In this document: positions 2,406 to 61,349 of the stretch, in pieces | How the letters are laid out: each line of letters opens with the position of its first letter | Numbering within the stretch: position 1 is the stretch's first letter | Source of the DNA: Cornus controversa | Taxonomy: Eukaryota; Streptophyta; Magnoliopsida; Cornales; Cornaceae | Direction of reading: 5' to 3' | Assembly (NCBI GenBank): GCA_026545225.1 | Contig: CM048852.1 | Span: forward strand, 54,071,146 to 54,135,145 | Length of the DNA: 64,000 nucleotides | Notes under the pieces: generated by a model | What the model saw: only the letters and a program-made list of their open reading frames with translations | Told to the model about the DNA's origin: nothing | Database searches by the model: none | Made by a program: the position numbers and the translations under genes

Positions 2406-5400
2406 TCATGTGAGTTGTTTTTGCTTTCTCTGAGGTTCAGATCTACTTCCTACCAACAAAGAAAATTATCGTTAAAATTTATATAGCACACATTTAATTC
2501 AATGATCAATGGTGAAAATTGGATACGTATATACTCCCTCTGTTCCATTTTAATTGTCCCTTTTTGGGAATCTTGTGTAGATTCCCAAAAAGGGACAATT
2601 AAAGTGGGACAGAGGGAGTACAATTCAAACAACATAATGTACATAGTAAATAAAGTAGGCATCCTTGAGTATAACTCTTTAAAAGAGAACTAAAATCTTA
2701 TGCTTTAACGTAAATATGCTCATAAAAGAAAATCACATCCCAGCGGGATGTATGTTCCCACCCCAAATGAGGCATAATGTCGAAAATATTCAGATAGAAT
2801 TGAAAAACCCCTCCTCAACCTCAGATATGTTTTAGGTGACAACAAAACAAAAAAATTTAAAAGGCAGTCTTCATTTTTTTTCTTTATTTTCCTTTTTGTC
2901 CTTCTGCACCCAATCTACTTCTTGACCAGCAAGATCATGGCTGGCCTGAGCTACTGCATTCATCCCTACTCTAATATTTAATAAATGGGTAAACCAACAA
3001 CTTGATTATAATTTTTTAAGCAACAAACCTCTAGATGGTTTTACTGCAAACAGTCCTTCCTGGATTCCAGTAATATGACGATCCTGAGGCCAAAAAAGAA
3101 AAAAACAATGTTAATTTTGAAATTTTGAAATATTCACAACTTGATCCAAGGAGCTTCTGATTAACTAATGTTTCATATGAAATTTTGGAGGGAAAAAAGA
3201 GACAACTGTCTAGAGTTGAGTATTAAAAAACCATGAACTCTCCATCTGGAAGCTAAGTAACAGGGAAGGGTGGCAATTCGTTTTTCCGTATCGTGTCATG
3301 ACACAAGTATCCTGTCATATGGGTCGATACGAACACGACACAATCATTACTCGTATCAAAGAACCTTGACACGAACACAACACGATTATTAAACAAGTAA
3401 TATGACATGACCCATGTAACCTGTTTAATAAATGGGCAAGACCTGACACAACACTACACGTTTAGTTAAACGGGTCTACTAGGTTATAAATGGTTGGATG
3501 GGTTGAACACGGACACAACACGTTTAATTAGCATGTCAGCTCAAGTCAATATGATTACGATCCGAATAGGATTAAGCCAAACCCACTTATCCTCTGTCGT
3601 TTTCGAGTCGTGTTGGCATATTTTTCAACTAATATAAACTTTTAGTTAGGTGGAGTAAATATGTCAACAACCTCTACATCCAAATATACCAGATGGATAT
3701 ATATACATTCGTGTTTGTAGGTGTGTGAGGGTGTTGGTGTGTGGTGGATGTGTGGAGGTCTCGGTGCGTGGGGGTGTGTGGGCAGGTCTGGGCAAATGTA
3801 GTTGCCTGATTGGATCTGTAGAATCCATACAAGTAAAAGCTAAATGCCAATGCAAAAGCTACAAATTATTACAAACCGCATCATATATTGCTGTTTGGTT
3901 GCGCCAGAATTCTAGTGTGGGAAGAAGTAGTCTGCCTGCAAAATATCAATCAACAACAAGCACAGGGGTGAAAACCAAAGTCAAAGTAACATTATTCATC
4001 ATTTTAGGGAGTATCAGAACATTGAAAATGATATCTTCATTTTATTTCCCAGAAATTATTCAGACACAAACCCATGCAACATGAAATGCAGGAAAACAAA
4101 CTCATTCATCAAAATGCACCCTCTGATATACATACAACAACAAAAAGACCTGCTATGATAGAAAAATTGTTTATCATGACAACATCAGTTATTTGACTAT
4201 AGAAAGAAACTACATTGAGAACCAAAGAGATAGGAGAGGGAGAAGAAGGGGGAGGGGGGGATAAAAAGCATACAGGCCAAACTTATATCGTTGCAGATGT
4301 AATTAGATATAGAAGTCTACATATCAAAATATAAATCTGCAAGAAGCCTAGAGCAGGACATTGCACGAGCTGTTAAACCAGATGTCGGGCTTACCCGATC
4401 GAGATCTTTTGGAAGTCAAAGACTCTGGAGAGACAACATGTGCTTTCTCTTTTTGCTTACCCAATCGAGATCTTTTGGAACTCAAAGATTCTTGAGAGAC
4501 CACATGTGCTTTCTCCTTTTGCCCCCGAGTGGCAGGACTTCCCTAAATAAAGAAGTAAAAAAATGACATTTTAAACAAACTCAACAAATAGTCGAAGATA
4601 TAACTGGATAAATTAATAAATTGCCAACAAAACAAAATATATAGAATCACAAAGAAATCATTAATCATCCGGAGAATGTATAAACCAACTGATGATATAA
4701 GCACTATTCAATACCCTTCCTGCACCTAAATCAAATAAACAGCAAAAGCAAGCATTGGTAAGATTTAATTAGGAAGAAGATGCAACTAGAGCACCAAGGT
4801 ATCTAAAATGCCCAGATAACAGATCTCACTTATTGCCTTTGGATATTATACTGTAAACCTAGATGCTGATGCCACCCTGATGTATCGCGCTGTGCTTGTC
4901 CTTCACAACACTATATCAGAAAACATAGATAGACTCTTATAAGAGATTAATTAGAAGACTGATTTCCAACATGACTAAGCAGTGTAAAGTACCAGAAACA
5001 GTGACTATATAGCATGAAACCATTATGCACAGAATACATCTTTTCCTTCCATAACATTATCAACTTAAGATATAATTTTATAAGAGATTATTTTGACCCC
5101 CTTTTAGTCACAGAAACCATCTCAAAGACCATTGGAAACAGTATCCTGATCATCATAAGACACTAAAAGCCGATTGCACACTAAAAGATAAGGTACCTGA
5201 ACTAATAAGTCTATAGTCCTGATAATACTTAACTACTGATGTAATAAATGCATCGGATTCTCAAATATTGATGTCCTATCACAGCGATGAAGAGCAGGTC
5301 ACATCATGATTAGCAATGTCATTGGACATAGTCAATAATGTCACTTGTATTATCTGCAATATAAATTCATCTTGATGAAGCAAAGACCATTACTTTTTAT

Positions 5401-8400
5401 TTCAGTTGAATAGCATTTCAAATAATCAATCTGTCAATTCTAGCTCTTCAGTTTTTCAGAGCTATGTTCCAATTTAGAAAAATCAAATTCACATAATAAA
5501 AAATGACAATATCTCAATTAGAGAGGGGTTAATATTAGTAAGATAAGCTCACCAAAATCAAGGAGAACAAAAGAATTTGAAAATTAAAAATTAGAACGGC
5601 TTACTAACATATGTCAATTTCCTTTTAGTCTTCTTCCTATATGCACTTGCTTCTTTAGCATTGCTCTCTTTCTTGTCAACAGTAGTTTTCAAGTCATCTT
5701 TATGGATTGCACCATCAATCCAAATGGAGGACTTGAAAGACTCGTTTGTGTTTTTGCCCTCCATACCAGCCTGAAACATAACGTTTCCATGAATTTGTTC
5801 CCATTTTGGATCAATACCAATATGAGAAAGCCACAATTCATATCAGAACCCTCTTTCATACACCCAGCATCTAAATTACTTACAGTTATATCATCTGTAG
5901 GCTCTTGAAATCCAGCATTAGAAACATTCAAGATACTCTTGCCTCCTGATTCACTCTCAACATTTGCTACAGCACTTTTTAATTGATCATCTTGGCCCTC
6001 ATCTTTTGATGTTAAGGAACATCTTCCTACTGTACGTTTGACGCCAATAGAAGAGACACTTGAACCAATATCAGCAATTGTTTCATCTTTTTCACCACTT
6101 GAGAAGTCAGTCACATTATTTTGCAGGTCAGAACTTTTCATGGCATGACCAATGATTATCTCAGACACAACTTGAGAAGGACATGCTTTTGTAATTTCAA
6201 ATGAAACTTTATTACAAGAATCATCCATGAGGCTGTGTTTCTCCATTGCTGACAAGATAATTCCACAGTCTTCTAATCCCACATCAATTTTATCACTGTC
6301 ATGCCTTTCTTCACCAATGAGCTTCTCATTTTTCTTTGGAGTTGCTTCACTAGAGTCTTTTGTGCCAGCACCAGCTGCAAATTTTCAGCATAACAGAAAG
6401 GGAAAATGTTAACATAGGAATTTCAGAATTATCAAGTCAGACAAAAAATAACACATTCGACATAGTAACTCAACATCAATAAAACAAATTGGCATGCATA
6501 TAATACTTCCTGAATGTGTGGATAACTTGTCATGACTCAAGTTACTTCTTGAAACAACCTCAGTGGTAAATCCTCCTCCAAAACACTTTTCAGCATATTC
6601 CTCCCAGTACGGAGGAAATCCAAAAACAAAATGATTGAAGACCTGTTCAAAGTAAGATTTAAGATAGAAACTTCATTTAAAATTTGACAAATTCAAATTC
6701 CAATATTTTAATTTTTATCCTTGTCTAAACTCTAAAATAAACATGTCAATGCAACCATAAAGAATGCGACGTTCACTCCAACCTTGTATAGGTGCATATG
6801 CCTTGACCCAGCCACCCGCAAACACCACGGCAGGATTTTGATGTATTTTACAACTCATCAGAGAAAGCTTCATCAAACTTTCTAAAGTAACAATATGACA
6901 AAGATCAATTATTTACAGTTTTCCATTTGATTTGCCTTACAATAGTTTTATGTTTGATATACCATCCGTCACAAGATTAACTATGAACAAAATAATAGAC
7001 ATTAGCATGTTTCCCGGAATCCTAACTCTTCAGTTTTGCAGAATTGATGCATGTGCAACTGTCAGTCTCCAACACATGAATCTTTAGATGACTTATGGTG
7101 CCAAGACTCTAAGAACAAAACAAGCCTGATGCCATATAAATTTGGCCACAGGAATGGTTCATCTTTCAAGCAATGCATCTGAAGTGTCACCTTAGTTACA
7201 CACATCAAACATTGGGCACCTTCTTGATTGCTTTGATTTCAAGTCCCAAGGCTCCTGAACACAACTGTGCCACATTGAAGCACTACGGCACTACCACAAA
7301 AATGTTTTACCTACTAGAGTCAGTAACTGCAATTAGATAACTTTGCCATCGGTTGTCCTATCAATTTGCCCAACCATGCCAGCTTCCTAATTTCACATAT
7401 TGAGCCATTTTCATGTGCCTTCAATGATAAAGTGACAAATTTTCTCCAGGAGTCCAACTAAGCACCAAAGATCTTTGTAAGGTAGTTCATATATTAACAT
7501 TTTAAAATTTTAGCTACTTGTTTTTGTACATCAGTAGTTTAGTTTTCACCTAAAACTTTGTTTTCCATTTTTAATATAAAATCTTGGCTCTGATGATATG
7601 TTTCTTTAAACATTCTATATGCTTCAACATTAGAAGTGAGGTCCCCACACTTGCCACAGGATAGATGATTTAGTTGTATGGCACTTCAACATAAAATAAA
7701 CTTGAACACCTAAAGCTAAAATGGATCTACAGCTAAGATTAATTAGTCCCTAATGAGTAAATAGAAAAAAGTTGACAATTAAAAGGCATTTCTTTGAACA
7801 TTTTATATCCTTATCATGTCAGGGTGAGGTCCCTACACTCGTCACGTGATGATTTAGTTGTATAGTAATTTTATAAAAAAACAAGCACAGGAACACCTGT
7901 CACTAACTGGAGGGGAAAACATAAAATAAAATAAGGATGATGCCCCCAATCCCCATTCATATTCCACTCATTGAAATTCTAAGTCTGTCTTGTTTCGTCC
8001 CGTTGTCTTGTTTATACTTTATGTTCTCTATTACTCCCCTTCACCCTCCACTTTTTATTTTTATTCATTTATTTATTTTTATTTTTTGGTTATGTGGGAG
8101 TCCAAAAGCATTCTCATCCTGCTTGTTGAATGTTAATTCACTTAGGGAAGCCCACATTACATTTACAAAGAAAGTTGACCATTGCAAGATCACTAACCAA
8201 TCTTCCACTGTAACATTTCTTCAAACTGCCTATCCAGTCCAGTCAATTGCCAACCTACAATCTTCTCGTACCACCTTTACAGCAAATTAATTCTGCATTG
8301 GCTCACAATTGGTTTTGTTGATTATGATATTTCATTTCTCATGCATGGCAGTCCCACCCTTTTGATTTCCTCACGCTTATGGTAGACTTCTCTTATGCTC

Positions 8401-9080
8401 ATGACCTATTTAACACATTCAAGAACTGTTATAGCTTTTCCATTGCCTTGTGATTTAATTTAATTTCCTGGATTTTAATTTATGTGCCTTTTACGGAAAA
8501 TTTTGAATTATTCTCCATTTACAAAAGCTTTCTAGGAATGTTGTTAAATAATATAGCCCAACTTAGTTCGCATGAAGCTCTTCTACACTTCAGAATCAGT
8601 CACTCACATGGGTTGCATTATAATATGGGCACAATAAAATTCTTAAGCAAGCCCCTGGATCAACGAAGCAATAAAAGCCTTCTATAGCTATAGCACTCCT
8701 CAAGTGCACGTCCTATTGAGAACCTTTTACATTAGAAGCTCTGATCCAAAATCAAACTTTGTATTTTTTACATAAAACCTTCTAAAATTCATAAATCTCT
8801 TGTGAAAAACCCACAAGTTTATCAAATAAGAACCTTGACCTATACTTTCAAATTTTCAAGTTATAAAATAAAACTAGTTTCGTGTGTGTGTGTGTGTGTG
8901 CATGTATGTATAGTGAATAAGAGAAGTACAAAATGCAATTAAACAACCAAACTTACAAGGTGAAGTCCCAAGCAAACAGTAATTACCTTCTTATCCAACA
9001 TTTCAAATCTAAAGAAGTCATCATTTGTGCATATCTTACAAAAAATAATTGACTACCCTTCTCAAGCAATAGTTTTGATC

Positions 9081-9121
<41 letters not shown>

Positions 9122-12100
9122 TATATATATATGTTAAAATACTGTAAGACAAAAAGTTGCTCTCAGAGACTCCTATAAAACTTCTGAGTAGGTGTTTCCA
9201 TCATGCTTCTATTCTAAGTACTCAAGTCAGGCAATAATAAGAAACACGTCATATATAGCACCAGATGCATCGAAACCCCAACTCCTGTTTCATGCATCTA
9301 AGTACTCGAGTAAGACAATAATGACAGACACATCACAGATAGCACCATACACCAAGCAGCCACATGCATCTCACTAAAATGGAAAATAAAAAATGGTTCC
9401 AATAAATATATGCATAATGCTGTCCACTTTCCATGATAACAATAACATACAACCCCGCTCCGCAAGTATTGTGGATCAGAAGCCTAATGCCCACAATTTT
9501 TACTAAGTGAATATCCTACATTGAAAACAGTTCATGGTGAACCTTGTGATCAAAAGTTATGCATAGGTCAAAAGTTATGCATATCATATGCTAATGCTAT
9601 TAACCTTTGTATGCTGTTCATCGGGCTTGCAACCTCACAAAGACTCTAAACACCTCTTTGGAGGCTCGTGGCCATGCTCTTGTAATTTGTTTAATGCTTT
9701 GCTACTACGAAAATCAATCCTTCTAAATTATCAAACTGGCAGTAAAAAATCTTAAATTTCAATACATGCACCATCAGTTACTTTTCCTCAAGCTCCAGGT
9801 GACCTCTAATAATTTTTAGAATGCTTTGATACATACTAAAGCACCGTCATACCTCTGTTACATGGATTCTCCCTCTACATGAGATAATGGAAGAAGAAGA
9901 GATTCCTCCTTATGATATAGATGGAATCCCCTTTTCTGACTAAATCCGATTTATTTTAAATCATAATTAAGTATTCCTTAAAATAATAATAGCATCATAT
10001 ACATACTAATATATCACATATTGTGTATTTAAATGTGCAGGAATTGTCCACGTAACCTGTCTTTTGATTAACTTAATACCATGCTTATCTGAGAACATAC
10101 CTCAGCAGGAAACCCATTTTCTTCTGTGCGAACCTTGTTTATGAAACCTTTAATAATAATGCATATCCCATCAACTGTCTCGAGAGTGAAAACATCATAT
10201 CTCCTGTGGATTGGTGCAGAAGAGAAAACTCGCCGAGCTTGTTGACTACAGCACCAAAGTAAATAAATTCCAGATAATAGAAATAAAAGAATTTCCAAAT
10301 CTGCTAGAAATTTAAAGCAAGTTAAAATGGAGAAGTTGCAGTAACTCGGAAGTAAAGCTCGTTACAATCCAGAAAGTGTACCTGGCTTGTAATTTGTATA
10401 AACAGTGCATGGGAAAAAGAATAATGATTATCAATAAAATAACGAAACAACCGTAAACCTTTGTCCATTTATGCCAAAAACCTTGTATGCAAGACACTTC
10501 CACTGATACAGCCATATGGTTAAGAGTTTGAAAATGAAAGAAAAATAAAGTGTAGTTCAAAACATAAAGAGAAACACTAATATCATCAACTCCGTCAACT
10601 AAATCAATAGCATGGTCCAAACAAGGGGAGCAAGGTTTTATTTTATAGACTACCAGAGTTTAAAACCTAAAGAGTTCAAGAAAAAACAAGAAAAGGAAAT
10701 GTAAACAAAAATAGTGCACACAACAGAAGTAAAGAAAGTGGCCATCATATATTGCATGCAATTACTCTCAGGATGTTTGAGGTCTTATGTTCTTCTATTT
10801 AACTCCATTCTTAAACTCCTAGCTCTAATAAATCCTGAGACCTTCTGTACTTCTTTTTAACTCTATGATTGTATTTTTTGCTCATTGCAAATAATGGAAA
10901 GCTTACTAATCATTTGGAAAAACACAAAAAACCAAGCTTAATTGATGGTTAAAAATGTTAATCTCAGAACCTTTCGATGAGTAATGAAGCAAATGCAAGG
11001 AGGAGAATGTTCGAAGTTAATTAAATCATGGATTCATTGTCACTTGTGGTATTATCACACCAAAACGTTATGCACAGTGCACCTGACATTCACCAAACTT
11101 GCTAAGTATCCAGGTCTCCTTCTATAGCAAACTCAAGGCGGTCAAGACTCAAGAATAGTTGTTTTTGGTTCCACTTTAAATACTTGCTATCAAGCAATAA
11201 AGAATAGAATAAAAGCTCACTGATAGGCTCTAAGGAAACAAGCTTTTCTCAAGGAACTAAGTGATCTGAATAAATTGGTGACAAATGTGGATTCCTGGGA
11301 AGTGGGCTTTGCCAAAAGCATGGCTCTTATATTTAGAGGCTCATAAACAACACCATGTCACCTTTAGAGAAAGTACTTTTAATGAGTGAAGCTATATATT
11401 TACGAGGGAGAGCAGCCAAAAACTTGGAGATGTTATTTACTCTGAACTATGCTGTCAATGTCATTGCTCTTTTTTATATTTATTTTTGAGCAAGTTCGTA
11501 ATTAAATCCATAACCATAACATGTAGTGAGATATCTTGAAAGGATCTTTTGTAAAGACATTTACTCGACAGGGAAATAACTTCAGCAGTGTCATTTTATT
11601 AACTTTTACTCCTTCACTGTTTTGACTTGATCAAAAAACAGAGCATTTCCTTTTCAACATTTCTAACCAAATTTTAGTCAATAAACAATCTCCTTTAGCT
11701 AAAAGAAATTAAACAAACATTAAGGAATTCAAGGAACGAGACAAAACAAAAGGAAAAGAAGAGTACACGCGTCCTTTGACACGTTGAGACCTATAAAACA
11801 CATTTTTTGGAGATCCTGCCAAAAGCACGAGCATATGGTAAGCACTGAGCAACCCTTAAAATGATGACACGGAGAAATGCAACCCAGTAATCATATTAAT
11901 CATGAAAACCCTAAATCGAAATGATTTTCACGAGTACAGTGATGCCAGAGAATTACATATTTACCACTCTAAACTCAGAGCATCAAAACCATAACAAGAA
12001 GCACAATTTCTCCTACTACCATGCATTTTGCCCAACAACGTAACCGGTGAATCATGAATACAAGAAAAACCCTAAGAAATAGAGGCCTTACTCTCGAGAA

Positions 12101-12398
12101 GTCAACCCAGCAATAGCGAGTCTCTTCTCTCCGAAGTCCGTTTCGACCTTAATCAACCACCAATCTTGCAAGCAGACCTTTTTAAAAAAAAAAATCAAAC
12201 ATATACAGCAAGCGATGAAATGGGTTTTTGATTTGGGAGTGTTTTTGGAAGCAAACTTACTGTTTTTTGAAAATGAGATAACGAACCATTGCTGCTGTCG
12301 ATTGATTGATTCGAAGTAGAAGCAGAGGCCATGGAGAGTTTCAGCAAATTTCGCTTTTTAAAGGGTTTTGAAGGGAATTGCTGAGAACTCAATTCCAT
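2406..12398 (-). CDS. KNL2: Kinetochore null 2 protein, alpha type (SANTA plus CENPC-k)
   Basis: KNL2 is a plant M18BP1 relative that localises to centromeres and is needed to load CENH3. Predicted CDS exons: 12398-12261, 12177-12092, 10245-10101, 6642-6507 (or ending at 6546), 6374-5818, 5770-5609, 4542-4395, 3935-3877, 3083-3029, 2449-2406. They total 1530 nt, 509 residues, all phases consistent. The SANTA domain covers about residues 47-140: it opens VCLQDWWLIK, continues VFTLETVDGICIIIKGFINK, and ends FGFPPYWEEY. An acidic and serine-rich middle follows. The C-terminal CENPC-k motif reads KRSRSGRLLLPTLEFWRNQ (about 453-471), then AIYDADRHITGIQEG. An internal ATG at residue 23 is another possible start. 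A different last exon, 2953-2871 (27 codons), is also open, but its acceptor lacks a pyrimidine tract. Domain calls are secure; the exon 4 donor, exon 6 donor and last exon are inferred. Confidence 0.87.
2532..2620. mobile_element. Stowaway-type MITE in the last KNL2 intron
   Basis: An 89-bp palindrome, including flanking TA, begins TACTCCCTCTGTTCC and ends GGACAGAGGGAGTA. These are the classic Tc1/mariner Stowaway termini. The arms pair through the central TTTTTGGGAATC / GATTCCCAAAAA. In the preferred KNL2 model it sits in the intron between exons 9 and 10. Confidence 0.93.
3266..3620. mobile_element. hAT-like MITE remnant in a KNL2 intron
   Basis: The segment starts AAGGGTGGCAATTCG, a decayed form of the TAGGGGTGGCAA end seen at 33642. 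It is filled with CGACACG, AACACGAC and GTTTAATAAATGGG motifs in both orientations, as in the elements at 33642 and near 52490. The right end is degraded. It lies between KNL2 exons 8 and 9. Confidence 0.6.
4395..4526 (-). repeat. KNL2: In-frame 66-bp tandem duplication in KNL2 exon 7
   Basis: Two 66-bp units, about 91% identical (6 differences by eye), each encode QKEKAHVVS-ESL-SKRSR-GK. Each ends in the donor-like GGTAAGC, at 4461/4460 and 4395/4394. Both donors leave the same phase, and both join in frame to exon 8 at 3935. Confidence 0.9.
8884..9132. repeat. Dinucleotide microsatellites (GT)n and (AT)n(AC)n(AT)n
   Basis: Pure GT repeats occur at about 8884-8900. An AT run, then AC, then AT occupies about 9080-9132. 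Both lie inside the 3.5-kb KNL2 intron between exons 3 and 4. Confidence 0.9.
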
Positions 12399-21362: not shown

Positions 21363-24300
21363 TTACAAAGCATTATTCTTATGGCAAATTTCATAGAAAT
21401 TTATGCAGGTTGTAGGGTTATCCCATCGAATCAGTTCTCTTATTTCTTTCTCAATATCCTTCATTTCTCTCATCAAGCCACTGATGCAAAACCCTAAGGT
21501 ACTCGAACAAAGAACCATTTGGCTCTTAGGCTCCTCAACTTCGTTAGAACGGATTTGATCAGTCACTTCCTTTGAATGTTGCAGGAAAGAATTTATTATA
21601 TTCTCCTCTTCCTCATCTGTACTCAAAATGCAGGCGTCTGCTTTTGGTGATTTTCCCAACTCAACATCGTGATTTATTTTCTTCTCTTGCAATTCTTTTT
21701 CAAAGACAGTGAGAGACTTGATCAAAGTGATATTTTCTAGGCATTTTAGTGAAGAGGCAACATTCTTGCTGAAAATGTCTAGATCAGTGGTCGTGTGCTC
21801 TTGGAGTTCCCTCCAAGCTGGCCCACATCTCTGTGAGGCTTGTAGGAGGAGCTCCATACTGGAGTTCATAAAGTGCAGGAGATCAGCCATCTTTGATAAA
21901 GACCTCAGGAGTTTTCTGTAACAAGCAACGCGAAAAGGCAAGAACCAGAAATGAGGCTCCAACTCGGCTTGTCCTGTGAACTTGTCTAATTTATTGACAT
22001 GAGCTTTTAATCTATTCTGCTTCTCTCTCAATGCTTGAAATATTGAAGTTGGCATGTCTTTCTGGCTGGAAGAGAGAACCATCTCCTCTATGCATTCTCG
22101 GAGCGTCCCCAATGTCTGTGAGAGTTGACTCTTGGCCAGATTTGCTGCTCTAGTGGGTTGCAAGAGTAGCTCTACCACGATGAAACAAAATAATCCGATG
22201 AAAGCCTCCGTGAGTCTAGCGAGGGCAAATTCACCAGGAGGCCCATAATTCTTCCGTCCTAGGATCAATAACGCTCCTATAACTGCTGAAATCCCACCTG
22301 ATTGACCATACATTCTGCTATGCCTTAGAAAACTGGTAAAAATGATCCAAGGGAGAAGAGGTAAGAACCTTATTTCAGAAAATCTTTGGAAAATGGAACA
22401 ACCCAAGACTCCATACACTGATCCCATTGCTGTCCCTTGCGCTCGAGCATTTGCCATAGTAAATGTTGCTTGTCTTCCTGTTGCAAAGCCGATGGCAATT
22501 GTAAGCCCCGACCAGTACCCATTTTCTTTGTTAAATAACAAACCAAATAGCACTGCGAGACCCAAAGAAAGTGAACACTTAATTGCAAACACCAGCGTTT
22601 CATTCCTCGGTATCCAGTGCCAGTCAGTGCAGATTCTTTTGAAGCTGTATTTGGCTTGTTCTTGTGAATCTCTTCTTGATTCTTCCTTCTTGGGTTTCTG
22701 ACTGCTATCTATGACAGACTGAATATTTTGAGTGATGGTTGAATCGTCTTGGAGGAGTTTCAAACAGAACAAGAAGAAAAAAGCTGGTAGGTCTTTGTGT
22801 GTTGGGGAATTGGTTTTAAGAGACTGGAGGAACTTGTCTAGAGATTCTCCCTTCGTCTCTGGAGCTGTTGTTGCATCTAAAAGCGGAAAGAGCTTGGCTT
22901 GTTCTAGTTTTAGGCTAATTTGCAACTCCACTCTTAATAAGATCTCTCTGAGCTCTTCATTTGTAATACTGACAGAAAAGGAGGGAGAAGTTAGGGCAAT
23001 TTCCATCCCCCTTATCGGCATTTCCATGTCTTGCAGTCTCTCTCCCAGGTTTATGGAACTGGGTTTCAAGAGTCTGATATGAGGTCTCTCCCACAGAACA
23101 CCTTCCTGTTCACAAGAAAGAAGCTAATTAAATCAAACTGGAAGAAGCTAACTTGCACTACTAGCTAGTGTGATGCCACAAATCAGTGTGATTTTGGAAC
23201 AGTCCAAGGCTTTTTGTTGTAACCAAAATTTCAAGTGTATATCAGCTTTACCTGTATGATTTTGATGCTTTGAAGAAGTTTGGCTCCAGTTTCAGCAAAG
23301 GGCTTGGCCTGAGAGAGGGTGTCAACTGCAGTTGGGTTGTCTTGGGCATAGAAGGCTTTCATAAACAGACTAACCCTCTCTGAAGCATTTTGAGCGTATA
23401 ATCTGCATAGTTTTCCTACCTGTAAGCATCCAAAAAAAAAACACATTAGCGACTGCAAACTTATGCTATGCTTGGTTGGAAGCAAGGATGGAAGAGAAAA
23501 GGAATAAAAGAAACTTTTTTTGTTTGGTTGGAAGGAAGGGAAGAGAGAAATGAGGCAAGGAGGGATGAAGCATCCACCTTTGCCTATTGTTTTTTTTATC
23601 CGTCCAAGTAAGGAAGGACGAAGCATTCACCTTTAGCTTTTTTTTAATTTTATATTTTATATATTTTTTTATCCCTCCAATTAAAAGAGAGGAAGGGAAG
23701 AAGGAATAACTACTCCACCAATGTGTACTACCAATTTAACTTTTAATTATTTACAAAATCATTTGTTAATACCAATTTGGAATGAATATTTATTTTTTAT
23801 AAGTATTTAAAATAATTTGTAAAAAAATATAAAAACTCTCATTCCCTTCTTCCTTTTGACCAAACAAAAAAAAAGGTGTTACCTCATCCATCATTTCTAC
23901 TATCTCTTCCATTTAACCAAACAAAAAAAGTGATAAAAACACCCTTTCTTTCTTAGGGATGACTCGTCCCTCATTGTTCCCTCTCTCTTCCATTGATCTT
24001 TCATCCCTCTAATAAAGTATGATATTTTTTATCATGTTTTTTTGGATTAATTAGACTCCAAGAGATTCGATAAATAATGATATTTTTTATTGGCAAATGC
24101 AATGTAGGCATTGGGTTCGGCAATAATGATAATGATAAACCCCTGACGTACCAAAATTAACCAGCCGTCACCCCCACCTAGTAGTAGACGGAAGGATTGA
24201 TTCATGGAATAACTTTTTATTTAATTAATAATGGTATAAAGCAGAAGTAATTCTAGCCGTGAATGAGTTAATTGGACTACTTGCTTGCAGAAGAATTGGG

Positions 24301-32662: not shown

Positions 32663-35600
32663 CTAAGACTTGTTCTGAGAGCGAGTCCGAGGGAGAAACT
32701 TAAGTCGGGGTGAAAAGCGCAACTCCTGCTTCTTCAATGTAGAAGATTTCCTCTTCAGACATTGGTTACTTTCACCACTGCCCGGAACTTTCCCTGAAAC
32801 ATCATACTGCATTTTAAATCTTCCACAATTATTTATATAAATAAAGGAAATTTTCATGATTAGTCTAGTTGTTACAAATCGTTACTCTGAGCATTACTGC
32901 CACTAAAGCATCACTCATGACGAGGCGTACGGCGTACCAATCAAATCCAACTAATGCCTCTTCCAAACAGTAAGGATTAGCTGACTAATAACCGTCGACC
33001 TATTTGCAATTCTTTTGGGTATTATGGAATGAAATTTGACAGAATGAATAAGTCTATCAGAATAGGCTCATATGGCTTAAAGAGCAAGCCTATCATGAGG
33101 GTGCTCTCACTGAGCTCACACCCTTCTAGCCATTGGATCGAGACTGCGAGGACAGCCTCCCTAACCAATGGCTGTGATGGCACAAGCTTAGTGAGAGCGT
33201 CATTGTTAAGTCTTTTCCTTGCTTAAAATGTGTGCTAGGCAGAGTGACCAAGACATTAGTGGTCAAGGACCTCAACATGGAATTCATTATGGATACTGCT
33301 TCTATAAAACAGCCTAAAACTCATACTTGAATTTATAAAAGAAACTTTTGTAAAAACTGGCAGCTAACTTGACGCCAGCCTCCATTTGAGTATCTGAAAA
33401 CTAAGAAAAGCGCCTTCATTTACTGAGTGCAACAGCACTAAAATTGAGATAAACAAAATCCAAGTGAGGGAATTTTCCACAATTAGAAAAAATTGGTATT
33501 TCATGTTTGACGGGGAATTTATCTCGAATAGACTTGAGAAACTAGAAGGAAAAACAAATCAGTACGAAGGTCATAATAAGAAGGAAAGGGAATTTCAAGA
33601 ATTAATTTGTGTACGTGAATATAATGCGGATCGGTCCTATCTAGGGGTGGCAAAATTAGACACGGCACGACAACACGACTCGAACACGACATGAATTAAG
33701 CGGGTTTGGGTTTGAGATAAGCCGACATGTTTAATAAATGGGTCGACACAAACACGACACGCAAAAATTGGGTTGGGTTTGGGTTTAAGTTGTCTAACCC
33801 GTGACACGATTACAATACGATTACGTCATGAGTTATATATATTATGGTTTTATACAAACTTATATACATAGTTATATATATTGCAATTGTTTGTAATCTA
33901 TTTGTTTGTTTACATGACTGATGTAGCCATAAAACGCAAGAATGAGATTGTTATGGTGTCTTTCCAGTTGTTGAATCACCTTAGTATGTTTTTGAGTTTA
34001 TATATAGATACAAAATTTATAATATAATTTGATTTTAGAATTTATGTATTGATATGTACTTTATTTTTTATATGATCTTTAGAGAGATTTTTAGGAGTGG
34101 AGAAACTCATACGATATAAGTTAAATGGATTAAAAAGGTTATTGAACAAGTCGTGTCATTATAAGACATGTTTATTAAACGGGTTACACGAGTTGACACG
34201 AGTAACACGTTTAATAAATGGGTTAGGTTAGTGTTGAGGGTTTCTGACACGATTATTAAATGGGTCGAGTTAGGGTTGAGCTGTTTAGTAGAATATTTAT
34301 TGATCGACACAACAAAGGAACATGAATTGCCACCCCTAGACTCCTATCGGAGAAGTGTCATTATATACAGGAATATTCAGAAACAATTAAGAGTGTTGCA
34401 AATAATTAATGTTAACTTTCTATGTTCTTAATATGTTAAATTATTGAAGAATGTCAGTGCCAAAAGTAGGTAACAAATCCCAGACTAAATGATAAATATT
34501 AGGGTAAATTGCCCAGAGGACCTCAAATGAAACTTGGCTCAAAATAACTCTTGAACGAAATCAAGCATCCCATGTGAAATTTCCAAATTCTCAACTTAAT
34601 TACAGCCCTAAAAAAGGTGAGAAATTATCATTAAAAAAAAGGTGAGAGATCATCATCATCCTAGCCTTTATCTCCCATATAATGGGGTTTGCCATATTGT
34701 ACATGTTCTAAAGAAGGATATATTTGCAAATATAAAACAAAGATAAATAAGACCCACGTAGCATATGCAAACGATTACAAATAAGCTGGGAACACAAATA
34801 TAAGGTCGGACTCAGCCACAATTTCATAAAATATAAAACAAATATACGACATATTTTTTAGGATGTTTGCAAAACCTTCAGTTTTTTTAGTGGTTTTGAC
34901 AGTGTCGGAGATCTTCCCTCTCTTAGTCCTTTCCTCAGCAAAAAGTGGTGAAGAGTCCGGTTCTTTTGTTTCCGATACATTACAATAATGGCTACTGGCA
35001 TTTCCTTCAGAGGAATTTGACTTTGTATGTTGTGCTAATTCATCCTTTTTCAATCCTTCTTCAGCTTCCATAACCTTATCCCATTTCCCTTCATGAACTG
35101 CTGAACGAGTCAACCTTCTTTCGCTGGTTGAATTCCTTAACTTTACCACATCAGTACTGGTCCTTTCATCAACATGCTTCCTATTACCTTTCTCTTTCTT
35201 TACTACGCTGTTATTTTCCTCAGTAGGGAGTAGCTCAATCTCAGCTTCAAATGAAGCAATTGATTTCTCGTCTTTCAATACAGAGCCTTCTAGGACTGCA
35301 ACATTTTTGTCTGCAAAGTCTGACTCAGTATACTTAGCCGATGTGATCTCTTGCATTCCTTGTTTAGATTCCATAGTTTGAATTTCCTTTTCTCTATGAA
35401 CTGCAGAACGAGTAAACTTTCTTGTGTTGGTTGAAGACTGTAATTCCAACTCTTTAACACAGGTCTTCCTCTCAGTATCGTCGTTCTCAATCCCAGCACC
35501 TCTCTTTATTGCTGAGCGAGTTAGTCTGGTAGCTTTATTAGGATGATCTAACTTCCTCTCTGCTATCAGACATGTAAAACTTGCAGTAGTATCAGAGATT

Positions 35601-38600
35601 TCAGAGTTCTTATTTTCATTTTCGCAATCCTTGGTCAGTATTCCAGAAGATGCATCCACAAGTTGAGGCTTTCCTGAAGCATTCCAGGTAGAGAATAGCG
35701 ATTTCACGACTTTATTGGAGTCTGGAACAAATGGAACTGAAGCAGCTTCTGTCTCCAAGAAGAGCTTATCTGTCATAGACAAGCTGTTCCCAATAGAAGA
35801 ATTGTAAGATTTAATCCCATTTAATGAATGCATAGCCACATGCTTATGAGCATTATCATCCGACAAGTAGTTGTGTCCCTTTTCTCCCTCATAGTAGATT
35901 GAAACTTCAAGATTTTGAGGTGATTTCGACATTAATGAAGCAAGAGCTGCACGAGCAGCTAGAGGATTTAGAGAAGACCTATTTACTGAAAGTTCCTCTT
36001 GAATGGGTGGTGGATCCTCGACTTCCTTCACAGTTCGCACTTTGCTCCTACTACGGGTAGACCTCTTCAAGTGATTGGAGTCGGGAGGAATTTTAACATC
36101 TGGCTTGTTTACTTTGGATGAGGTAACAGGTCTGCACTGAATTTGCCCTCTGTTATCAACTGTTTAAGAAAAAATGCATGGTCGTGAGATATTTCCGATA
36201 AAATAGAATATTGAAAATTCAAAGGTAGGTAATTTTGGATTTGACTATCTGGAACTCTTTAAGCACCTTATTTTGCATGTGTGGCTTGCAACCAGAGCAT
36301 CAGAACCCAATTACTAATGGGTTTGGCACAAAATTATAAAGGACCGTCTGATGGTATTATGTCAATTTTGGCATATCGCTCTGACAGCATAGGAACATTC
36401 CCCCAATTTGGGCAAAAGAATGTGGCTGGATTATGTATCAATTCATAGTTTTTCACCCATTCATGAGATGGAAAAATCACCACAAATTATGGACGTAAAA
36501 GTAAAAGATCCAGTCGAATGTTGTACCCAAAAATTAATAGAGCTGTACTTATAAAAAATTAGTAGAGAGTAGAAACATAAGCAACTATAATTTTAATCAT
36601 TAGCAGTCACCACAACGTCAGTAAATAATTAAATATATCCAACCACTAGTTCAAGACCATGGGGTATGGAGTCCAATGCAAGACATTTTATTAAATTACT
36701 GAAAATTGTACAGAATCATTTGACCATATTTATTTTTGGTTCCATTAAGTGGAGCCACGCAGAACATCCTGCATATTACTCGAGTGACAAAACCTGTTAC
36801 AGGGTCTGCGATAGCAAGGTTCTGCACTAAGGCTCTCACGCAAAACACTCAATATTAACAACAGCATCAGGACAGTCTTCATAGACTACAATAACAGACT
36901 AACAACTGCAAGCTAACTTTCCATACTTAAACTACCTAAATAAAATAAGAAGCCCCAGACCCTGTAATATTCATCAAAATGATACAGTTATGAGTGTGGG
37001 TGCCTACCTTCAACACCCAACAGAATGTCCTCTGAAATCTCCACATTGGAAGCATAAGCAGAATTGCTTATCTCCTTTATTTGTTTTTCCAAGAATTCAT
37101 GAAGATCGATTTCACAGTCCATGTCTTCGAGAATGCTTATTGCTGGTGATGTGCCAGAACAACTCAAGTCTTTCTCTGTATTAAAAAATGCAGAAACTGT
37201 TGGATGTATATTAATGCTTTTTGTAGCCAGTTTCCTGATTGAACTGGATGAAACAGTCAAAGTTCCTCCTTTAAGGTCTTGATGAAGCCATTTGATCAAG
37301 AAAGTACATCGACAATAGACTTTCTTTGAGTGTCTTACCCGTAGTACCTGGTAATCATGGAGATCAGGTATGAACAGAATTAGCAAGGCAAAGGCATTTC
37401 CGCACATCTGTTTAGACATCAAAGTAGAGGACCATTGTACACTACGAAGGTCACACACAAATACACATTTTTTAAGGGGTAACATAAGTAGCAAGGATCG
37501 TATGAATTCACCTGGAACTTCAATGGAATCCTCATAACATTATGTTATAAGTTACTTATGAAAAGCAAATGATAAAAGAATAAAAATGAGTGTCAAAAGT
37601 AGTCAAATAATCAAAACTAGGACTATATGCAAGCTGAGCCGAGCCAAGTAGAAGGATGCTCTAGTTCAGGTTGAAAAATTAAAGAGCTCCGAGATGAGGC
37701 TTGAATTGGGTCATTTATCTGAAGAGTATGCTTTTACTCAAGCTGATTGGAGTTCGAGCTCCAGTAATTAAGTCTTGTATAAAGTTTTAGGATGCTCATT
37801 TAGCCGACTTCAATAAATCAAAGATCTTCAAAATGCATGTGATCAAGTTTGACTCGTTTATCTCACTAGTGATGACGACAACAATAGGAACCTAAAATAA
37901 TGATGCCTATAAATGGTTCTGGTGGACTTGGATAATAGAAGCTTGAAAATTATGGTTTTAATTAGTGGAAGAAAGGTTGTAGAGTTTATAGATGAAAGGG
38001 GTTAGAATTGGCTTCAATTTTAAATTAAGAGGCCAATGGGATAAGGTCGATTAGCCTCAATATGCACTGTTTGAGGAACAGTTACTTAAGAATAGTAACT
38101 GAAGAGAATAAGAATAAAGGCAACGAAGAATCCAGGAATCTAACCTAAGTTTCAACCTTGCGATGATTTAGGCACATATCATGAGCACAATCTCAAATTC
38201 TCATAAATCAACTCCATCGAAAAGTGTGGGTACATGGCCCATGTTACATGTGGCATCAAGATTGAGAAGCAATCCTTGGCACACACAATCAAACTAGGCC
38301 TACATGGTTTCACAACTAAGCTTTTGGCTAATATGATCATCATTAGCATGATTCTCAAATAAGAGAAATACCCATCTTCTCGTTACCCTCTATAGGCCTT
38401 GGTTCGCCTTTATCTCTAATATGCAAATAGTTTTAAACTTCAATTTGAAGCCTCAAGGAGTTCCTCCTGTGGACAAATTTCGAAAATCTTGATGAGTTCC
38501 CTCCTAGAAATAAGTCTCAAGGAAGCAGATCTTGTCAAGAGATTTTTTAAATTTTAATTTACATGGGAACCGAGCCATCTCTAGAGTTACTTACAACTAT

Positions 38601-41600: not shown

Positions 41601-44600
41601 TGGTGTGGGGACATTGTTATGGCTCACAGGTTTCCTCATCTTTATAGGATCGCTACGAATAGGCATGCCTTGGTTGCTAACTGTTATCGGCTTGATAGCA
41701 GAAGGATGATTTGGGATGTGTGTTTTCGGAGAGAGTTCCATGATTGGGAGCTAGCGGAGATAGTAGAGTTCCTACCACTGCTTTATGGACATGTGGTGGA
41801 GTGTGAGGGGATGGATGAGTTGGTTTGGGCGGATTCACCGAGTGGAGTGTTCGCACTTCGATCCTTCTACAAGAGTTTGTTGGTGATTCCAGGTCCCAAC
41901 TTCCCATGGAAGGCGATATGGAAATCAAAATCCCCCCTTGAAGGTGGCCTTCTTTACATAGGCAGCTGCCCTAGGAAGGATCCTCACTATTGACAACCTT
42001 AGAAGGAGTGGGCTGATAATGGTGAACATGTGCTGCATGTGTAAGAAGATGGAGAAAATGGTAAACGATCTTCTCATTCATTGCCAAGTGGCGAGGGAAG
42101 ATTGGTCTTTGCTTTTGGCAGTGTTTGGTATGACATGAGTGTTCCCTAGGTCCATGGTGGATATGTTAGAGGCTTGGAGAGAGTGTATAGTGGATAGCAA
42201 GGAAGCACGGACACGGGATACGGGTACGACACGATACGGATACGGCAATACGGGAAATCTCAAAAAAATAGGATACGGACACGGCAAGGATACGTCAAAT
42301 AAATAAAAATATAATATTATACATAAAATATTAATTTTTATTCTTCAACCATAAAATAAATATAGTTAAAGTAATTATACAAAATATAAGAAGTTAAAAT
42401 CTAAAAATTCACTATCTTTTCTAATATTCTTTACAATGACTCACTCACTTGAGGGTTTTAAAAATATTTTTGTTTTATTATAAAATGATCTTCATTTTCT
42501 AATCTATAAAGTTTTTAATATTACAATCTTAACCCCATTTTATAGAACAAAAAATTACAAATTTGCCCCGAAAAGTATCCCAGCCGTATCCCAAACGTAT
42601 CCTAAACGTATCCCCGCGTATCCTAACCGTATCCCTTGCGTATCCTAGCCGTATCCAATATTCAAAAAATAATTTTAAAACTTTGGATACTTCTTAGCCG
42701 TATCGAACACGTATCCTGCCGTATCCATATCGGATACGTGTCTGATACGGCCACAAGGCTCTTTTTGGAGTATTCGTGCTCGATAGGTGGATAGCCAAGT
42801 CCGTGATGCTTGGAGGGTCACTCCCTTTTGTTTACGGTGGGGCTTGTGACATGAGAGGAATAGGAGGTCTTTCATGGGGAGGAATCTTCTATTTGGTCTC
42901 TCAAGTACAGTATCTTGATAGCATTATTTTTTTGGATTAATGGGCGGAATTGTAAATCTGATGACCAACTTATGGATTTTGTGGATAGTTTGTAAGTATA
43001 GGTGGCCGCTTGCGGCTTTTTGCGTTTTCTCTTGGGAGCGCTCCCCTTTTGAGCGCCTTTTAATGAAATTCTTACTTATTAAAAAATAGATATATAGAAA
43101 ACTTCAACTCTTTGACTACTAAGAATATTATAAACCTACTAAAGATTTGACATAATGGCCCAACATCAGAACTTTACCCAAAAATGACCTGCGAACCACT
43201 ATTACAGTTCATGTCCAGCAAATCTAGATATTACCAAAGTACCGAGACTTGAACTTCATAAAATAAATAAATCAGTCCAACAGCATACTAACAAGAAACA
43301 AACATAAGTAAATACTTAAACACTACCATGGGCACTTTTCTTTGAATCAAGAAGGCTTCTTAAACTCGTTAGAACCACAACAACTACTTTAGGCCTCTAA
43401 AGCCTATCAAACTAATTCAACTACACAATTGACACAGCATCATATATATAATTACATAAATAAATAAATCAGTCCAACAACATACTAACAAGAAACAAAC
43501 ATAAGTAAATACTTAAACACTACCATGGGCACTTTTCTTTGAATCAAGAAGGCTTCTTAAACTCGTTAGAACCACAACAACTACTTTAGGCCTCTAAAAG
43601 CCTATCAAACTAGTTCAACTACACAATTGACACAGCATCATATATATAATTACATATATAAATAAATCAGTCCAACAGCATACTAACAAAAAATAAACAT
43701 ATGTAAATACTTAAACACTACCATGGGCACTTTTCTTTGGATCAAGAAGGCTTCTTAAAGACGTTAGAACCACAACATCTACTTTAGGCCTCTAAAAGCC
43801 TATCAAACAAGTTCAACTACACAATTGACACAGCATCATATATATAATTACATATATTTATATATAATGGCATAATTCAAATCATATTGTAGTCTATCTG
43901 CCATAAAATGGTCATAAGATTATGACCTAAGCTGCTATCATCCTGAACGAACTAGATTATGGTCTTAGGCACTTTAAATTGGGCCTAATATTGTATTTGA
44001 TTTACTTGGTAAATAATAAACTGCTCAAAGAGACCATATATATACATATATTGTACAATGTATATCTTGCCTAAATAGGGTGTTGGGATGGGAAAATCGG
44101 AGACAAACTTAACCTTTGACATTAATTTGCAAAAAGAGACTGAGAACTCGTTGTCAGCCGAACTTTTACCATTGCACCAAAATGACCCGTACTAGGACAA
44201 TATCATACTCCCTCCGTCCCATAATATATGGGTACTTCGGGAACTGTGACTCACAACTTTGTGAGTCACCGTTCCCAAACTACCCATATATTATGGGACA
44301 GAGGGAGTATTTAACAAAAGTTTTAGCATAATGATAAAAAATGCCAAATAGTGATACAAAGAAATCTTTATATACTTTATATGGGTGTATACAGTTCGGT
44401 TCGGTTTAACCAGAACTGAACTGATCCCAACGACTCCAAAAATATTAGAACTGAAACCAAACTGTTGGAACAGTGGAACCAAACCGAACCGTAGAAGACT
44501 GGTTTGGTTCAGTTTGGTTCTATTCCATGGTTTTGGGCTTTTTAAAATTCAGCTCAAAATGAAAGAATTAAAAGCCTTTAGCCCAACCAACAAACATACA

Positions 44601-57430: not shown

Positions 57431-57544
57431 TTGGACTCACTTCCCTTACAATTTCATACATCTGTAACCCTAGTTTTGCTCGACTTTTTATCTCTTTTTC
57501 TCTCGCTCTAGTCTCTATTCTTCAAAGAAGAAGAGAGATAAACT

Positions 57545-60500
57545 ATGGCCGGAAAAGGAGAAGGACCTGCTATCGGGATCGATCTTGGCACGACTTACTC
57601 GTGCGTCGGAGTTTGGCAACATGACCGTGTTGAGATCATCGCCAACGATCAAGGAAACAGAACGACGCCGTCCTATGTTGCCTTCACCGATACCGAACGT
57701 TTGATCGGCGATGCGGCTAAGAACCAGGTCGCGATGAACCCGATTAACACCGTTTTCGGTAAGATCTACGTTCGTACATGTACATGTCTATATAGCTTAT
57801 GTTTATGTGTAGATCTGGAGTTTATGCAACTGGATCTACGTTATTTGACTCGTGTTTACGTTTTATACTCATTTATGAGTCGTACTTGTATATGTATCAC
57901 ACAGGACGTGTGCATATTCTGGAGTACATGTATGTGTAGTTTACTTGTATATAGTATCTGTATCTTTTATGTGTATAATCGTCATGCGTATATTGCTTGT
58001 CTATATCGTGTATTTACATTAGTGGATCTACGTTGCAGCTATAGTCTTGCTTTATATGTTGTCTTTTTACAGATCCATGATTATGTTGATGGATTTTGTT
58101 CACCGATGTTTCAGATCTGAATTAAAAATTGGATTTTGGCCGTATTGTCATGTTTTCACTTCTGATTGAATTCATAGATAGACTAGTCACAACTTTTTTA
58201 TTTTTTTATGGTTCATTATTTTTGTTTTGCATCTTATTTTGATGATTCAATGCTTTCGTTTAAGTTTGAAGATTTTCGTGTATAGTCCGATCTATATGTA
58301 GCAATTCCTTTCCTAGATCTATATTGGTAGTCTTAGTTTTATTTCAGTTACTTGTACAGATTTGATCTACTACTTGGCTTCATGGACCTTGATAAATTGT
58401 TGTTTTGTTCGAATTTCTTTGTAGTGTTTGTTCAATTGATGTCTCCATTTTTGTTTTTCTTCCTAGTTTCATGACTGGTATAATGTCTTTTGGTCATGTA
58501 TTTTGACAGATTTGGTTGAACTTACTAGTTCAGCTACTGTTGTTGCAAAATACCCCAAAATTATCCTTATTCAAGTTAAATAGAAAATACTTGGCAACTC
58601 CAATATAAGCCAACCCAAATTGAAAGTATAGTTTTAAATGCATCAAGGAAGGTCCTGCTGTATTTTTATACGAGTTAAAATTTTGAAAAACATTTTTTTA
58701 GTAAATTTTCATTTTAAACAGTATTGAAGGTAATAGTTTTAAATGCACATCTAGTAAGGTCCTGCTGTATTTTTATACAAGTTAAAATTTGAAAAAATTT
58801 TTTTTTAGTAAATTTTCTTTTTAAAGGGTATTGAAAGTAATAGTTTTAAATGCATCTAGGAAGGTCCTGCTGTATTTTTATACAAGTTAAATTTGAAAAA
58901 CATTATTTTAGTAAATTTTCATTTTAAGCAGTATCAAAAATGTCAGAATGGCCTTTTCTTATAATTCCAATATAAGCCAAACCAAATTGAAATTAACAGT
59001 TTTAAATGCATCTAGGAAGGTCCTGCTGTATTTTTACACAAGTTAAAATTTGAAAAAGCAATTTTTAGTAAATTTTCATTTTAAACCTTGTCAAAAATAT
59101 CAAAATGGATTTTTCTTGTTATAGCGCTTACTTAGCAAAGAACAAAACTAGTCGTCTTCTATGTTATACAATCTATATCTTTTGGATTTAATAAAGCAAG
59201 ATATATCAATAACAATATATTCTAAATCCTGAGTTAGTAATTCCTATACATTCTTGAACACCCGACTGTTTGAGAGTTTAGAGCACTTAGATGTTCATCA
59301 AGTGTCATTTATGCTTATGCATTTTGTGTGCGATGGCTAATACAATCAATTCATATTAGTTGAATGCAGGATTACATCATATTTTAAAACAAGGTTTTGT
59401 AAATTATTAAATTGTTGGGTGTGATGGCTTTTATAATCAATTTATATTAGTTGAATGGAGGATTACATTATATTTTAAAATACAAGGTTTTGTAAATTTA
59501 TTCTAATGATACTTTTTCTTTCTCATTGATTTAAAAAGTGGTATATTTTTCCTACTTCAAAACTTTTTGGTTTGTGAATAAATGAATGTTGTTCTTTGCA
59601 GATGCGAAGCGGTTGATTGGAAGGAGGTTCTCTGATGCCTCTGTGCAGAGTGACATTAAGCTGTGGCCTTTTAAGGTTATTCCTGGACCCGGTGACAAGC
59701 CCATGATTATTGTAAGCTACAAAAATGAGGAGAAGCAGTTCGCAGCTGAGGAGATCTCTTCCATGGTCCTCATCAAGATGCGTGAGATTGCTGAGGCCTA
59801 TCTTGGTTCCACTGTGAAGAATGCAGTGGTTACTGTCCCTGCTTACTTTAATGACTCTCAGCGTCAGGCAACCAAAGATGCTGGTGTCATTGCTGGTATC
59901 AATGTTTTGCGTATCATCAATGAACCCACTGCAGCTGCCATTGCTTATGGTCTTGACAAGAAGGCAACGAGTGTTGGCGAGAAGAATGTCTTGATCTTTG
60001 ATCTTGGTGGTGGTACTTTTGATGTCTCCCTCCTGACCATTGAAGAGGGTATCTTTGAGGTGAAGGCTACTGCTGGTGACACCCATCTTGGAGGTGAAGA
60101 TTTTGACAATAGAATGGTGAACCACTTTGTTCAGGAGTTCAAGAGGAAGAACAAGAAAGATATCACTGGTAACCCCAGAGCTCTCAGGAGGTTGAGGACT
60201 TCTTGTGAGAGGGCAAAGAGGACTCTTTCATCCACTGCCCAAACCACTATTGAGATTGACTCTTTGTATGAGGGTATTGATTTTTACTCCACCATTACCC
60301 GTGCCAGATTTGAGGAGCTCAACATGGATCTCTTCAGGAAGTGTATGGAACCAGTTGAGAAATGTTTGAGGGATGCTAAGATGGACAAGAGCACTGTCCA
60401 CGATGTTGTTCTTGTTGGTGGATCTACCAGGATTCCCAAGGTTCAGCAACTTTTGCAAGATTTCTTCAATGGGAAGGAGCTCTGTAAGAGCATCAACCCT

Positions 60501-61349
60501 GATGAGGCTGTTGCCTATGGGGCTGCTGTCCAGGCTGCAATCTTGAGTGGTGAGGGTAACGAGAAGGTGCAAGATCTCTTGCTCTTGGATGTTACCCCTC
60601 TGTCCCTCGGTTTGGAAACTGCTGGTGGCGTTATGACCGTATTGATTCCCAGGAACACTACTATCCCAACAAAGAAAGAGCAAGTATTTTCTACCTACTC
60701 CGACAACCAGCCTGGTGTGTTAATTCAAGTCTATGAAGGTGAGAGAACAAGGACCAGAGACAATAACTTGCTGGGCAAGTTCGAGCTCTCTGGCATTCCC
60801 CCAGCTCCCAGAGGTGTGCCTCAGATCACAGTGTGTTTTGACATTGATGCAAATGGTATTCTGAATGTGTCTGCCGAGGACAAGACCACTGGACAGAAGA
60901 ACAAAATCACAATCACGAACGACAAGGGAAGACTGTCAAAGGAAGAGATTGAGAAGATGGTGCAAGAGGCGGAGAAGTACAAGTCTGAGGATGAAGAGCA
61001 CAAGAAGAAGGTCGAGGCAAAGAATGCTTTGGAGAACTACTCGTACAACATGCGGAATACCATCAAGGATGAGAAGATTGGGGCCAAGCTTCCTCCAGCT
61101 GACAAGAAAAAGATTGAGGATGCCATTGAAGAGGCCATCCAGTGGCTGGATGCCAACCAGCTTGCGGAGGCAGATGAGTTTGAGGACAAGATGAAAGAGT
61201 TGGAGAGCATCTGCAACCCCATCATTGCAAAAATGTACCAAGGCGCTGGTGGTGACATGGGTGGAGCAATGGACGATGACGCACCTCCTGCTGGTGCTGG
61301 TGGAAGTGGCAGTGCTGGTCCTGGTCCTAAGATTGAGGAAGTGGACTAA
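57545..61349 (+). CDS. HSC70: Cytosolic heat shock cognate 70 kDa protein
   Basis: HSC70 is an ATP-driven chaperone of cytosol and nucleus that folds nascent and stressed proteins with J-proteins and nucleotide exchange factors. Exon 1 (57545-57758) and exon 2 (59602-61349) join within an aspartate codon ([13 protein letters not shown]), the intron position usual for plant HSC70 genes. This gives 653 residues. Signatures: [15 protein letters not shown] with the N-terminal ATP loop; [31 protein letters not shown]; the substrate domain after the [16 protein letters not shown] linker; the glycine-rich lid tail; and the terminal EEVD that binds TPR co-chaperones and marks the cytosolic class. It is intact. 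An upstream HSE and TATA box suggest basal plus heat-boosted expression. The number of paralogues cannot be seen here. Confidence 0.97.
58597..59105 (+). repeat. Four degenerate ~105-bp repeats in the HSC70 intron
   Basis: Units starting AGTTTTAAATGCATCTAGGA and containing AAGGTCCTGCTGTATTTTTA and TTTTAGTAAATTTTCATTTT begin near 58630, 58735, 58842 and 58998. Copies 1 and 4 are each preceded by CCAATATAAGCCAAMCCAAA, so a larger unit was duplicated as well. Confidence 0.9.

Follow-up and report, generated by a model that had tools for sequence, protein, structure and literature searches.

Eudicot KNL2 is divided into alphaKNL2, which carries a CENPC-k motif, and betaKNL2, which lacks it (PMC9210943). 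Targeting in Arabidopsis reportedly requires Arg-7 and Trp of CENPC-k (PMC9210943, citing Sandmann 2017), and it is aided by DNA-binding regions close to the motif (PMC11879092). Furthermore, SUMO sites have been placed at K474 and K511 (PMC12903445), and a functional D-box at 80-83 of Arabidopsis alphaKNL2 (PMC12231567). A link of this D-box to the duplication described below was considered and rejected, as positions 80-83 are far from the duplicated stretch. Several splice variants are reported for maize KNL2 (PMC9210943).

In Xenopus, the CENPC-k motif is controlled during the cell cycle. Mitotic phosphorylation of Ser760 of M18BP1-L prevents its binding to CENP-A nucleosomes; consistently, the S760D variant fails to bind nucleosomes, whilst S760A binds like the wild type (PMC13021935). 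Nevertheless, S760A does not localise to the metaphase centromere, which indicates that further control exists (PMC13021935).

Short tandem duplications that copy splice signals inside a coding gene have been described before. In potato RdRp, an intron was born by tandem duplication, and ATP2A1 is cited in the same report as a further case (PMC4974935). The locus described here resembles these cases in the short tandem duplication of splice signals within a coding gene, but in KNL2 an existing exon/intron border was copied, so that two donors would compete and no intron was gained.

This locus lies in a window of 64,000 nucleotides of Cornus controversa, i.e., the whole stretch of DNA that was analysed. 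Like other eudicot alphaKNL2 genes, it encodes a SANTA domain and a C-terminal CENPC-k, and a second SANTA gene is present in the genome. It differs from them in having two donors and a duplicated unit of 22 residues that immediately precedes CENPC-k and extends into its start. Tandem donors or exon duplications in KNL2 are not mentioned in the splicing passages of PMC9210943, PMC11879092, PMC12903445, PMC13294675, PMC12231567, and PMC11503545, and a search of the literature, with few subscription journals covered, found nothing on KNL2 in combination with alternative splicing and CENH3. This is consistent with a preliminary description of the locus, whose author knew of no tandem-donor arrangement in KNL2. 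The peptide LEFWRNQ was nowhere encountered in the literature searched. Among viral and bacterial/archaeal contigs, two collections without plants, no relatives were confirmed, which is to be expected of a gene from a plant.

The alphaKNL2 gene

The gene model was built by hand from the reading frame and splice signals, its exons being predicted ones (Table 1). The borders of 9/9 introns in this hand-scripted model are GT..AG, and the predicted product comprises 487 amino acids via the distal donor of exon 7 and 465 via the proximal one. The SANTA domain (PF09133, E 9.2e-29) occupies residues 47-139. CENPC-k, as translated across exons 7 and 8, reads KRSRSGRLLLPTLEFW, includes Arg-7 and Trp, and fits, in a by-eye comparison, the plant consensus KRSRSGRV/LLVSPLEFW (PMC9210943). 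Judged from its sequence, the gene in the window is thus alphaKNL2 in the scheme of that paper.

When the protein was compared with the assembly of 771.7 Mb (61 contigs), 10 scored matches were obtained at E up to 10, nine of which are exons of alphaKNL2 itself. The tenth is a SANTA exon of the second gene, located at C5:43120306, with 50% identity over KNL2 residues 77-126. The pattern [LIVM]E[FY]W is absent from the six frames in the 6 kb around this match, the 3' end of the gene not being delimited. The SANTA domain of this betaKNL2-like gene seems, by eye, to be distributed among three or more open frames, whereas betaKNL2 of Arabidopsis consists of a single exon (PMC9210943). With the C-terminus of alphaKNL2 as the query, only its own gene was matched and nothing elsewhere in the assembly. 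A retrocopy of the KNL2 mRNA, which would be a witness of splicing, was not found among the scored assembly matches of the protein, DNA, and C-terminal queries. Intron 9 contains an inverted repeat (2532-2620) with 42-nt arms that are 95% complementary and a 5-nt loop; it begins TACTCCCTCTGT and is presumably a Stowaway-type MITE.

Table 1. Coordinates of the alphaKNL2 features discussed, as positions within the window.
Feature	Position	Strand	Remarks
alphaKNL2 coding region	2406..12398	(-)	gene model, 10 exons
Exon 7, long form	4395..4542	(-)	148 nt, predicted with distal donor
Exon 7, short form	4461..4542	(-)	82 nt, predicted with proximal donor
Exon 8	3877..3935	(-)	remainder of CENPC-k, (G)RLLLPTLEFWRNQ..., shared by the two forms
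First copy of 66-bp unit	4455..4520	(-)	codes QKEKAHVVSQESLSSKRSRLGK, read one base to the left
Second copy of 66-bp unit	4389..4454	(-)	codes QKEKAHVVSPESLTSKRSRSG up to the distal donor; last bases intronic
Proximal donor GTAAGC	4455..4460	(-)	U1 duplex -9.2 kcal/mol
Distal donor GTAAGC	4389..4394	(-)	U1 duplex -10.3 kcal/mol

The 66-bp duplication

A tandem unit of 66 bp comprises the end of exon 7 plus the first bases of intron 7; its two copies are identical at 60/66 positions, in frame and without any indel. TRF reported a repeat at 4389-4522 with a period of 66, 2.0 copies, 91% matches, and 0% indels, and a repeat search returned the two copies listed in Table 1, also at 91%. A match of 60/66 between two random stretches has a probability of about 1e-27. 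As a DNA query, the stretch gave a single match in the 771.7 Mb assembly, i.e., itself. Since the bases flanking the copies are G/G on the left and C/C on the right, the register can shift by one base either way, and the copied unit has, therefore, roughly 4-6 intron bases. The six differences between the copies comprise three synonymous changes and three replacements (Q/P, S/T, and L/S).

The preliminary description had reported an in-frame duplication of 66 bp with ~91% identity in KNL2, and TRF, the repeat search, and the identity count bear this out. The span it assigned to the duplication, 4395-4526, designates the same pair, counted from donor to donor, but is displaced by ~6 bases from the repeat, with 4522-4526 at or beyond its edge. 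An artefact of assembly or sequencing is extremely improbable: stutter produces near-identical copies, whereas these differ at 6/66 positions with the frame intact, and this divergence of 9% argues against assembly stutter.

At substitution rates of 6.5e-9 and 1.5e-9 per site and year, the Ks of 0.22, which derives from three synonymous changes, corresponds to 17 and 75 My, respectively, and all six differences together to 7.5 to 32 My, figures that give the order of magnitude only. With Ka at 0.06 and Ks at 0.22 on only six changes, the copies are indistinguishable from neutrality. In neutral simulations (n = 20000), the copy stayed free of stop codons in 65% of the cases, remained stop-free with no more than three residue changes in 27%, and GGGTAAG was kept in both copies in 42%. 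Thus, the open frame and the substitution pattern also fit neutrality.

Two splice donors and residue 5 of CENPC-k

Both copies retain GG/GTAAGC. The two donors are in phase 1 and join exon 8 at 3935 in frame. Their strength was expressed as the pairing energy with the 5' end of U1, not as a trained splice score, and by this measure they are the best two donors of alphaKNL2, the eight remaining ones ranging from -3.1 to -7.0 kcal/mol. One further GT in exon 7/intron 7 reaches -6 (-7.6, with the exon end at 4072). Being of like strength in U1 pairing energy and in one phase, the two are candidates for tandem alternative donors. Inside the CENPC-k motif, position 5 alone distinguishes the two forms, being Ser (TCG) with the distal and Leu (TTG) with the proximal donor; Arg-7 and Trp are contributed by exon 8 and are identical in both.

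The two sites had earlier been called strong 5' splice sites, an assessment that holds in comparison with the other donors of the gene. In addition, the rebuilt model reproduces the same phase, the in-frame joining of exon 8, and the difference of 22 residues that had been proposed, and translation gives the same peptides, KRSRSG (distal) and KRSRLG (proximal). The proposal of two isoforms that would differ at the first residues of CENPC-k is partly supported: the predicted forms would differ at one residue inside the motif, besides the 22 residues before it.

Position 5 is Ser in 5/5 other motifs compared. In PDB 7y7i, which we take to be the chicken KNL2-nucleosome entry, it is found in TRSGRLVKPPLSFW, a weak match (E 0.12) in a protein named 'Myb-like domain-containing protein', and the CENP-C motif of the C. 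controversa genome, GVRRSSRIKMRPLEYW, has it in a by-eye alignment. The plant consensus given above and the delta motif RRLRSGKV/I have Ser at this position as well (PMC9210943). Furthermore, Ser-5 aligns with Ser760 of Xenopus M18BP1-L, as the S760A primer translates VSRAGRL (PMC13021935); the serine before G-R is present in the distal form, KRSRSGR, and is replaced by Leu in the proximal form. This correspondence, suggested by the alignment, is an addition to what the preliminary description had claimed. The motif position, R-S-G-R, is the same in both systems. However, whilst binding is controlled by phosphorylation in Xenopus (PMC13021935), it would be donor choice that decides on the presence of the serine in alphaKNL2 of C. 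controversa. As Leu-5 would be phospho-null, the choice would lie between such a residue and a possible phospho-switch.

Which donor is used

The in-frame duplication of a splice donor in alphaKNL2 is real and, as far as sequence features tell, most likely yielded a longer exon plus a less used alternative form. When the border of exon 7 and intron 7 was duplicated in tandem, the exon end was copied together with the first few intron bases, so that, in the long form, the former intron bases GTAAG would be read as the codons Gly-Lys in the middle of the exon. The distal donor (4395) would then be the main one, giving a protein of 487 residues with a repeated basic linker of 22 residues followed by an intact CENPC-k, and the proximal donor (4461) would probably be used at a low level. 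The first copy, freed from starting CENPC-k, may have drifted to Leu at position 5; if Ser is ancestral, the change from TCG to TTG would be a C-to-T transition in a CpG.

Several features favor the distal donor. It pairs better with U1, and Ser-5 is retained beside this donor only, which counts for its use. The 66 nt between the donors contain 24% T; a T content as low as this occurs in 26% of the exon windows (n = 851) but 10% of the intron windows (n = 7944) of alphaKNL2, and this also counts for the distal donor. The AT content of the same spacer, 0.576, lies at 18% of the exon and 15% of the intron windows and leaves exon versus intron undecided. Intron definition operates for many introns in plants (PMC2674458), and in this mode the closest pair of splice sites across the intron is preferred (PMC9225289); together, these rules point to the distal donor as well. 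In contrast, splicing of human-type minigenes that had a pair of identical donors and 365-nt flanking introns relied exclusively on the upstream one of the pair (PMC9225289). The introns flanking exon 7 are 1066 and 459/525 nt long and, under such an exon-definition rule, the proximal donor should win. Because the splicing rules conflict, dominance of the distal donor with minor use of the proximal one is given a probability of no more than about 0.6.

It is rather unlikely that both donors are substantially used to make two proteins with different functions, a long one with Ser-5 and a short one with Leu-5 and a shorter basic linker, which would be a more specific version of the two-isoform view in the preliminary description. 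The near-equal pairing energies of the best two donors of the gene and their common phase, by which either donor leads to a full-length product, would fit such a situation, and so would the alignment of Ser-5 with a mitotic phospho-site of Xenopus (PMC13021935). However, all other motifs compared have Ser where the short form would have Leu-5, and the behavior of Xenopus S760A, which lacks centromere binding at metaphase, suggests that loss of the serine alone may change little (PMC13021935). The net charge (K+R-D-E) is +4 per copy, and the segment from GSPATRG to Trp carries +8 in the long and +4 in the short form. The importance of DNA-binding regions near CENPC-k for targeting in Arabidopsis speaks for a functional difference between the forms, but the regions mapped there (468-477 and 581-598) are not the same as the duplicated linker (PMC11879092), which makes a role of this linker in targeting a guess.

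The use of the proximal donor as the main one, with the second copy being intron and CENPC-k starting with KRSRLGR in a protein of pre-duplication length, is unlikely. The exon-definition proximity rule (PMC9225289), given flanking introns of >250 nt, would support it and, provided that the duplication is derived, the 82-nt exon would have the original size. However, a conserved Ser would then be replaced by Leu in the main protein, U1 pairing is slightly better at the distal donor, and the low T content and open frame of the spacer would have been kept by chance.

A splice-coded bypass of the mitotic phospho-switch is a very doubtful option. By analogy with Xenopus, phosphorylation could keep the long form, with Ser-5, away from CENH3 nucleosomes, whereas the short form, with Leu-5 and a shorter basic linker, could not be phosphorylated there, and the ratio between them would tune centromere residence.

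The birth of a new intron from the proximal GT to an AG within the second copy (Rogers-type) can practically be dismissed, since this copy contains a pyrimidine-rich TTGTCTCTCCAG but no usable AG: none of its AGs is more than 55 nt away from the proximal GT. The intron would measure 36 nt, or 55 nt if it extended to the last AG ahead of the distal donor, and the usual minimum for plant introns is about 60-70 nt.

Other features of the window

A long open frame at 21363-23123 (-) encodes a FUSC-family membrane protein (PF04632, E 2.5e-15). The region 34775-37539 (-) contains open frames, the longer of which has a repeated TRSA motif and no Pfam match, whilst the other one matches SAWADEE weakly, with an E of 4.5e-4 that falls below its cut-off. 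A 198-bp unit is present in three tandem copies with 96% matches at 43263-43857. An HSP70 gene is located at 57542-61349 (+), with PF00012 matched at E 5.2e-227 on 59586-61349 and the N-terminal frame at 57542 recognised by eye; a tandem array of 3 x 107 bp (58619-58934) lies between its two open frames. RNA families were not found in the window.

Implications

If a single donor is used, alphaKNL2 of C. controversa would be a clean case in which a short tandem duplication in a kinetochore gene made codons out of intron bases or gave rise to an idle second donor. If both donors are used, the gene would provide two naturally occurring KNL2 proteins with different residues at the very CENPC-k position which, in the frog, is the mitotic switch for CENP-A nucleosome binding, and the role of this serine in plants could then be tested on natural isoforms.
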